DNA from: Candidatus Iainarchaeum sp.
GTDB lineage: Archaea; Iainarchaeota; Iainarchaeia; JAADDC01
Reading direction: 5' to 3'
Length of the DNA stretch: 28,538 nucleotides
NCBI GenBank assembly: GCA_030445695.1
Contig: JASUTF010000011.1
Coordinates: 1-28,538, forward strand
The notes beneath the pieces are model-generated. The model ran no database searches and was not told the origin of the DNA. It worked only from the letters and a program-made list of their open reading frames with translations. Below, piece after piece: positions 4,049 to 26,594 of the stretch. The position numbers and the translations under genes are program-made. How positions within the stretch are numbered: position 1 is the stretch's first letter; each line of letters begins with the position of its first letter.

Positions 4049-4122
4049 GCCCGAGTGGTGTAGCCAGGTTAGCATGCGGGCCTGTCGAGCCCGCGACCCG
4101 GGTTCAAATCCCGGCTCGGGCG
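4049..4122 (+). tRNA. tRNA-Asp (GTC)
   Basis: A 74-nt cloverleaf. The acceptor GCCCGAG pairs with CTCGGGC, followed by discriminator G. The anticodon stem CGGGC/GCCCG closes the loop CTGTCGA with anticodon GTC. The T arm is CCGGGTTCAAATCCCGG. CCA is not encoded and no intron is seen. Unlike the other two tRNAs here, no duplicated 3' end or 51-nt element follows it. Confidence 0.95.
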
Positions 4123-4128
4123 CTACCA

Positions 4129-17310: not shown

Positions 17311-17332
17311 GTAGATCTGACGTTTCGCCTAC

Positions 17333-17340
17333 TTTTAAAA
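17333..17340. promoter_or_regulatory. Palindromic TATA box between Nudix gene and tRNA-Glu
   Basis: TTTTAAAA, identical to the boxes at 3994 and 15441. It is 26.5 nt from the Nudix GTG, and it predicts a tRNA-Glu transcript beginning near 17362 with a leader of about 14 nt. One box probably serves an mRNA and a tRNA in opposite directions. Confidence 0.6.
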
Positions 17341-17375
17341 CCATTTCTTTGCTCCCATTCTACTGCTGTTCTGGG

Positions 17376-17450
17376 GCTCCGGTGGTGTAGCCCGGCCAAG
17401 CATTCGGGCCTCTCGAGCCCGAGACCCGGGTTCAAATCCCGGCCGGAGCA
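17376..17450 (+). tRNA. tRNA-Glu (CTC)
   Basis: A 75-nt cloverleaf. The acceptor GCTCCGG pairs with CCGGAGC, followed by discriminator A. The anticodon stem CGGGC/GCCCG closes the loop CTCTCGA with anticodon CTC. The T arm is CCGGGTTCAAATCCCGG. CCA is not encoded. An imperfect second copy of its 3' end lies about 121 nt downstream, next to the 51-nt repeat. Confidence 0.95.
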
Positions 17451-17453
17451 CTT

Positions 17454-17575
17454 CCAAACCATTTTTGTTGTTCACCAACCATCTCAGGATACTTGGTCGT
17501 GGGTACGGGTTCGAAGAACCTGTGGCCGCATTCGCGGCCCAATGAAATGGGCTTCAGGATCCCGGCAGGAGCACT
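17454..17575 (+). mobile_element. Putative tRNA-3'-end-associated mini-element, copy 1
   Basis: The 122 bases after tRNA-Glu contain no credible gene. They hold a 51-nt conserved core (17499-17549) with two tandem hairpins. ACGGGTTC (17505-17512) pairs with GAACCTGT (17516-17523), and GGCCGC (17524-17529) pairs with GCGGCC (17534-17539). The core runs into an imperfect copy (17549-17575) of the tRNA-Glu T-arm and acceptor 3' strand (17428-17452), with 23-24 matching positions over about 26. The core recurs at 26440-26490 beside tRNA-Pro with 49 of 51 identical bases. A tRNA 3' end duplicated around foreign sequence is the footprint left by tRNA-targeting integration, but no integrase is present. 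A structured pre-tRNA trailer or independent ncRNA is the main alternative. Confidence 0.55.
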
Positions 17576-26372: not shown

Positions 26373-26420
26373 CAATAAATAACCGTCCTCCGCGTTTAAG
26401 AGCAACTAAGAATGTGCAGG

Positions 26421-26515
26421 TTATGGGGCCGCAGGGGCACATTTCATTGGGCCGCGAACGCGGCCACGGGTTCTTCGAACCCGTACCCACAACTGGGATC
26501 GGGCATAATAGGAAG
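26421..26515 (-). mobile_element. Putative tRNA-3'-end-associated mini-element, copy 2
   Basis: Downstream of tRNA-Pro, about 95 nt hold the 51-nt core (26440-26490, minus strand) with the same two hairpins as copy 1. Only two bases differ: one turns a G-C pair into G-U in copy 1 and the other lies in a loop. An imperfect copy of the tRNA-Pro 3' end (26421-26437; 16 matches plus one inserted base against 26516-26531) follows the core. The duplicate matches tRNA-Pro, not tRNA-Glu, so each copy carries the tail of its own host tRNA. The interval between tRNA and core differs from copy 1 in sequence and length. Confidence 0.55.
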
Positions 26516-26518
26516 TTA

Positions 26519-26594
26519 TGGGGCCGCGGGGATTTGAACCCCGGATCTCAGGCTCCCAAAGCCTGAATGCTGGGCCAGGCTACACCACGGCCCC
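26519..26594 (-). tRNA. tRNA-Pro (TGG)
   Basis: A 76-nt cloverleaf on the minus strand. The acceptor GGGGCCG pairs with CGGCCCC, followed by discriminator A. The anticodon stem CAGGC/GCCTG closes the loop TTTGGGA with anticodon TGG. The T arm is CGGGGTTCAAATCCCCG. CCA is not encoded. Confidence 0.95.

Follow-up and report, generated by a model that had tools for sequence, protein, structure and literature searches.

Two tRNA genes in the window, as we call the whole 28,538-nucleotide stretch of Candidatus Iainarchaeum DNA analysed here, are each followed by a short hairpin-rich insert and then by a second copy of the gene's own 3' end. The window is contig 14 of the source genome (G000), a 664-kb, archaeal, DPANN-like assembly of 29 contigs that is 88.6% complete. 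On the forward strand, an intact tRNA-Glu(CTC) gene, called by ARAGORN and Rfam, lies at 17376–17451 behind a TATA-like promoter (ACTTTTAAAACC, 17331–17342) that is kept in the syntenic loci of two genus mates, G002 and G003. The tail of this gene, comprising the T-stem 3' strand and the acceptor 3' strand (17436–17452), returns at 17559–17575 with 16 of 17 positions identical, the two copies being 123 nt apart. A first-pass annotation made from the letters alone had already noticed the duplication, which stands, but the spans it gave (17428–17452 and 17549–17575) were too long, as the match begins at the T-loop/T-stem 3' strand. In another genus mate, G001 (C14, locus 1430–1800), tRNA-Glu(CTC) with its promoter and leader is inverted between the same flanking genes, which amounts to a local inversion.

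The insert bounded by the two tail copies (17453–17558) has homologs at the Val-TAC, Val-GAC, Pro-TGG, and Ser-GGA tRNAs. Its left end (17456–17470) is a decayed inverted match (AAACCATTTTTGTTG) of the right-end hairpin and may be compared with AAACCATTTCATTGTT at Pro-CGG and Ser-GGA. The inner module is a 51-nt core (17499–17549), for which the first-pass annotation had described two hairpins and referred to a second copy, by implication at a tRNA-Pro. Both points were borne out, the hairpins being TACGGGTTCGAAGAACCTGT (17504–17523, from sequence and fold) and GGCCGCATTCGCGGCC (17524–17539, from sequence), and a third, the right-end hairpin CCCAATGAAATGGG (17538–17551), can be added in the sequence, partly overlapping the one before it. 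The second locus is on the reverse strand, where an intact tRNA-Pro(TGG) gene (26519–26594, ARAGORN) is accompanied, by sequence comparison, by an element at 26438–26514 with a core copy at 26440–26490 (49/51 identical) and a decayed tail duplicate, CCCCTGCGGCCCCATAAC, at 26420–26437 (13/17 in the standard register). The window also holds a 5S rRNA and a tRNA-Asp(GTC) (1963–2083 and 4049–4123, respectively); neither the head nor the tail of this tRNA was found duplicated.

A whole-genome search with the core, set beforehand as a possible refutation, found five copies in the source genome, all of them 3' of a tRNA (Glu-CTC, Pro-TGG, Val-TAC, Val-GAC, and Ser-GGA) and none away from tRNAs. After each copy come the T-stem 3' strand and acceptor 3' strand of its own host, along with a few adjacent bases, in line with the earlier suggestion that the flanking repeat differs by host. 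A known RNA family, likewise named in advance as refuting, is ruled out: an Rfam search returned only the tRNA and chance matches, and none for the core at or above the gathering score. Among the 39 tRNAs that ARAGORN finds in this genome, ten carry tail duplications (Glu-CTC, Glu-TTC, Val-TAC, Val-GAC, Ser-GGA, Pro-GGG, Pro-CGG, Pro-TGG, Cys, and Leu-GAG), five of which enclose modules other than the core; a Trp tail match at +174 was discarded as being the next tRNA. A mirror arrangement is present at 12 or more tRNAs (at least 12), in which a copy of the tRNA's own first 15–20 nt is followed by hairpin modules and then by the complete tRNA, and two further head copies lie where a contig breaks off within an element of this kind. 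Pro-GGG and Pro-CGG show both types, and a relative of the core occurs within the head-type element upstream of Leu-TAG (C27). The proposal of a small non-autonomous element at tRNA 3' ends is thus supported but was incomplete, as 5'-side elements with head duplications exist and the core is one interchangeable inner module, less important than the end hairpins. In the source genome, hairpin elements accompanied by copies of the gene's own ends are present at about half of the tRNA genes.

Comparisons were made between species, not strains, and covered five members of the genus (G000–G004), two further genomes of the same family (G007 and G008), and one of another genus (G005), in addition to more distant families. 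The genomes are incomplete, which bears on every gene-absence result. The same arrangement recurs in the genus mates G001, G002, and G003, partly at different tRNAs, while G005 yielded no convincing case, both of its tail matches falling within a tRNA cluster. As a chance control, the head and tail of each tRNA were looked for in the sequence flanking that tRNA and in the sequence flanking same-genome tRNAs with different ends. Tails reaching 15/17 were found in 18 of 131 own comparisons versus 12 of 3708 with other tRNAs, and heads reaching 14/15 in 17 of 131 versus 2 of 3920. In the reverse test, the adjoining tRNA was the closest or tied match for all head copies (22/22) and for 17 of the 20 tail copies.

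The junctions follow a regular plan. Tail-type repeats run from the T-loop (about position 58–60) to 2–4 nt past the tRNA and sometimes further, as with about 34 nt, exact, at Ser-CGA of G001 and 37 nt at Glu-TTC of G002. Head-type repeats begin at the tRNA 5' end, or as much as 6 nt ahead of it, and extend as far as the D-loop, where the usual last bases are TAGCTCAG, GTCTAG, or TAGCC. The inserts measure about 60–200 nt, lack coding capacity, occur in multiple copies per genome, and are built as chains of hairpins. The commonest module combines an end hairpin (e.g., CAACCG-CCACAT-CGGTTG), a small CGC-GCG hairpin, a third hairpin, and CACA. Comparison of the ends at Val, Ser, and Pro pairs CCATTTCATTG on the left with CAATGAAATGG, inverted, on the right, the hairpin ends being self-palindromic and the right end variable; in G001, CAACCG...CGGTTG stands at both element ends, each hairpin again being a palindrome in itself. 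Because the ends of several elements match inversely, the elements look like miniature inverted-repeat transposable elements (MITEs) with hairpin inverted repeats. The module at the initiator-type tRNA-Met of G002 appears from its sequence to lie in reverse orientation.

The hairpins are supported by covariation. In an alignment of 15 sequences, 93.8% of the pair cells are standard pairs, and 29 cells changed on both sides compared with 8.5 in shuffles, a signal that was lost when the partner was slid. The aligned sequences were chosen by short anchors and by the CCG/CGG in the inner part of hairpin one, then trimmed by eye, so that this evidence rests on the third hairpin and on the outer pairs, which are variable; the more homogeneous alignment (A2) was used, and another with mixed hairpin registers (A1) was dropped. 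Folded alone as a single strand, the Glu insert is not exceptional (z = −1.67), and it is the covariation across copies, not this single fold, that is evidence for structure. The hairpin-CACA layout also raised the idea of a self-cleaving ribozyme or an H/ACA guide, for which Rfam gave no support.

Several observations point to insertion. At the 19 head-type loci, a crude scan found a TATA-like box (at least 6/7) upstream of the head copy in 13 cases and upstream of the tRNA itself in 1, and this placement suggests that the head copy is the original gene start and that the element lies in the present leader. Empty sites in related genomes, to which the first-pass annotation had pointed as a check, do occur: at the syntenic Thr-GGT locus, G001 and G003 have a promoter, a short leader, and the tRNA, and G000 and G002 have a promoter, a short leader, a head copy, an element, and the tRNA; the elements of these last two genomes differ, but both follow the same GTAGCTCAG. 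Similarly, Val-GAC is occupied in G000 and followed by plain sequence in G001. The Val-TAC and Val-GAC elements are 98.6% identical, and homologous bodies are common to the Arg, Pro, and Ile head elements. Since related bodies are thus flanked by differing repeats that are always derived from the host, duplication of the target is favored over a carried attachment site (attP). Finally, a solo module in a plain intergenic region of G002 (C13), between TTGCTCAGCTCACCTCC and TTGCTCAGTTCACCTCC, has a 17-bp repeat on both sides, TTGCTCAG[C/T]TCACCTCC.

A covariance model of the module (R1) found 18–22 copies in each of G001–G003, nearly all beside tRNAs when coordinates were compared by eye, and eight credible matches in the whole source genome, all at tRNAs or at contig ends breaking inside an element. 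The matches on G003:C111, G001:C35, and G002:C40 adjoin a tRNA-Leu(CAG) recognised from sequence, which the Rfam scan did not call; those on C78 and C42 of G002 lie at contig ends. On C54 of G002 (about 14400), the element stands beside an inverted orphan tRNA-Thr tail copy with no tRNA nearby, a layout that suggests rearrangement after insertion. In G007 and G008, matches are again at tRNAs. Genomes of more distant families often have the end hairpin CCGCA(AA/TT)ATCGG..CGCT starting 2–6 nt from tRNA ends, in sense at the 3' end and in antisense at the 5' end, and the tRNA-Gly(TCC) of one such genome (G017:C48) contains an 86-nt insert at 37/38, the classical intron site, that begins with the element end hairpin. 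It is possible that this intron derives from a mobile element. The copies in G059 and part of those in G073 are not tied to tRNAs. Because the distant matches are few and partly weak, their kinship with the genus elements, as judged by sequence, is probable rather than proven. We also note that G059 belongs to another family and that its non-tRNA copies, which have the same end hairpin, include two that hardly differ over about 130 nt.

Some contigs end in or beside tRNA-associated elements, as at the starts of C4 and C8 and the end of C11 in the source genome and at several contig ends in G001–G003. As the assemblies are broken at the elements, the tRNA sets look incomplete; as they break at tRNA genes, the elements are probably under-counted.

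We consider it reasonably likely, with a rough probability of 0.62, that these are short, non-autonomous elements of the MITE type with hairpin ends, which insert preferentially into tRNA genes and duplicate their target so that the tRNA is regenerated; that they transpose is what we infer from the arrangement. A recombinase acting in trans would make a staggered cut, with one junction in a tRNA loop (the D-loop at about 15–20 or the T-loop at about 58–60) and the other at the nearer end of the tRNA or just beyond it. The sequence between the two cuts would be duplicated, much as in target-site duplication by a staggered cut, and one complete tRNA would therefore always remain. On the 5' side, the outcome would be promoter, head copy, element, and tRNA, the element being a leader RNA; on the 3' side, it would be tRNA, element, and tail copy, the element being a trailer RNA. 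In both cases, normal end processing would remove the element from the pre-tRNA.

Some findings weigh against such insertion. A clean duplication at a distance from tRNAs turned up just once, and the duplications vary in length from about 15 to 37 nt, unlike those of a fixed-stagger transposase. Three tail copies are exceptions to the host rule: the Glu-CTC copy of G003 is a better match to a Gly tail, and two more are slightly closer to another isoacceptor (near-ties). The covariation of the hairpins could also mean that the RNA is selected. Moreover, the Cas1, RVT_1, and Phage_integrase profiles were without match in the incomplete genomes G000, G001, G003, and G004. G002 is the only one of the five genus members that matches Cas1, reverse transcriptase, and tyrosine recombinase profiles. 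Searches of the genus with PF01867, PF00078, PF00589, and PF01797 led to no recognisable autonomous relative with the same ends and a transposase. A different kind of enzyme could be at work, or the enzyme could be supplied by another element or by the host.

Selection on the RNA is the basis of the explanation that otherwise survives best, although we regard it as unlikely, namely that the elements are functional structured leaders and trailers that act in cis to control tRNA processing, the head or tail copy serving as a decoy that pairs with the opposite acceptor strand. The hairpins do covary strongly, the 5'-side elements lie within the transcribed region, roughly half of the tRNAs are occupied, and the copies can, by construction, pair with the opposite acceptor strand of the host. 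However, mismatches break this pairing in decaying copies such as the Glu-CTC and Val-TAC tails, the same tRNA is occupied or unoccupied depending on the species, many modules have no recognisable copy, and the module is also found away from tRNAs.

It is improbable, in our estimate, that the elements are remnants of tyrosine-recombinase integration, each with its own attP matching the tRNA end and with the integrase gene lost. Classical archaeal att sites are tRNA genes, where cleavage in the anticodon loop is established and cleavage in the D- or T-loop has been suggested, and pTN3-like integrases are known to target the 5' half of the tRNA (PMC8371274). Such integration likewise leaves a partial tRNA on one side and a complete one on the other and uses loops and ends as sites (PMC8371274, PMC9897764), and the source genome has a classical-looking island running from a tRNA-Met to a tail copy. 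Nevertheless, the elements integrated by tyrosine recombinases are kilobases long and carry an integrase and a fixed attP, whereas those described here are about 0.1 kb, too short to encode an integrase, and have a repeat that follows the host. Closely related elements bear different heads or tails that are always those of the host, while an attP would travel along; PF00589 is matched only in G002, with no match in G000, G001, G003, and G004; and the apparently inverted terminal hairpins and the 17-bp repeat away from tRNAs fit transposition better. The island itself occupies G000:C24:45901–46966, where a tRNA-Met(CAT) with an intron is followed about 0.9 kb on by a 17/17 tail copy, as in a classical integrated island; judged by its sequence, the interior may consist of small protein genes, possibly of the toxin-antitoxin type.

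There also seems little chance that the elements are MITEs of casposons or other Cas1-type elements, in which a Cas1-family integrase would act on terminal inverted repeats and produce a long target duplication at tRNA ends. Casposons resemble the present case in being archaeal, in their long target-site duplication, in their preference for tRNA 3' ends, in their tandem arrays, and, as far as the ends here are inverted matches, in their terminal inverted repeats (PMC6977970); both show tandem insertion at a single site, and the duplications found here, often 16–24 nt, are of a similar order. Yet casposons are multi-gene elements whose 14–15 bp duplications overlap the tRNA by a few bases (PMC6977970), only the last 4 bp in the case of tRNA-Leu, whereas the duplications reported here span 15–37 nt and, starting from the T-loop or running up to the D-loop, take in the T-stem and acceptor strand or the head. 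Insertions on the 5' side are also present here, and no such use has been described for casposons. Furthermore, Cas1 was matched in only one of the five genus members, G002, and was not shown there to be a solo Cas1.

The remaining candidates were set aside briefly. An IS200/IS605-like element finds no footing, as the Y1 transposase profile (Y1_Tnp, PF01797) had no match in the five genus genomes and target duplications are present; an intron spliced at the T-loop by way of the second tail is rejected because second tails often have mismatches that would disrupt the acceptor stem; gene conversion among tRNA genes should have placed the head or tail of a donor in the host, and none was seen; and an assembly artefact is contradicted by the same arrangement, with different sequences, in four independently binned genomes. 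With regard to a viral origin, four core or module patterns gave no match in viral contigs, and the matches of a fifth, in three overlapping contigs with weak model scores and coding-like sequence, were put down to chance.

Archaeal MITEs are short, non-autonomous elements with inverted ends, present in several copies, and in these respects they resemble the elements described here, whose ends look inverted in several cases; they differ in making short duplications without a tie to tRNA loops, and they have reportedly been discussed for Haloquadratum. Closer in build are the double-hairpin and repetitive hairpin-forming elements of fungal and sponge mitochondria, which are short, non-coding, modular, scattered, without an enzyme, and variable between close relatives, but which occupy intergenic regions and genes generally, whereas the elements described here are found almost exclusively at tRNA genes and with the gene's own end duplicated (PMC2800124). 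By analogy, then, the nearest precedents are casposases in biochemistry, tyrosine recombinases in choice of site, and mitochondrial hairpin elements in anatomy, and none covers the combination. In the literature on tRNA-associated MITEs, Micrarchaeota tRNA repeats, casposons, and double-hairpin elements, the arrangement was not described, which is weak evidence given that only open-access texts were covered.

Beyond insertion as such, we propose only tentatively that the elements may represent a new kind of mobile element that targets tRNA genes as a class. Some machinery would read conserved tRNA features, insert at loops (the D-loop, the T-loop, and, in one related genome, the intron site of the anticodon loop) and at ends, and regenerate the tRNA by duplicating the cut arm. 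In several families of the archaeal class, the element would then live on as the leader, the trailer, or an intron of the RNA. The conjunction of host-derived repeats, loop-to-end cuts, and use of both sides of the gene is a pattern that known tRNA integrases do not show. Mobile elements of this kind, if mobile they are, would be a parasite specialised on tRNA genes, one that copies its target and so does no harm. Partial tRNA genes, long leaders and trailers, and possibly tRNA introns could then also arise from them, which would bear on the origin of the split, permuted, and intron-bearing tRNA genes of archaea.
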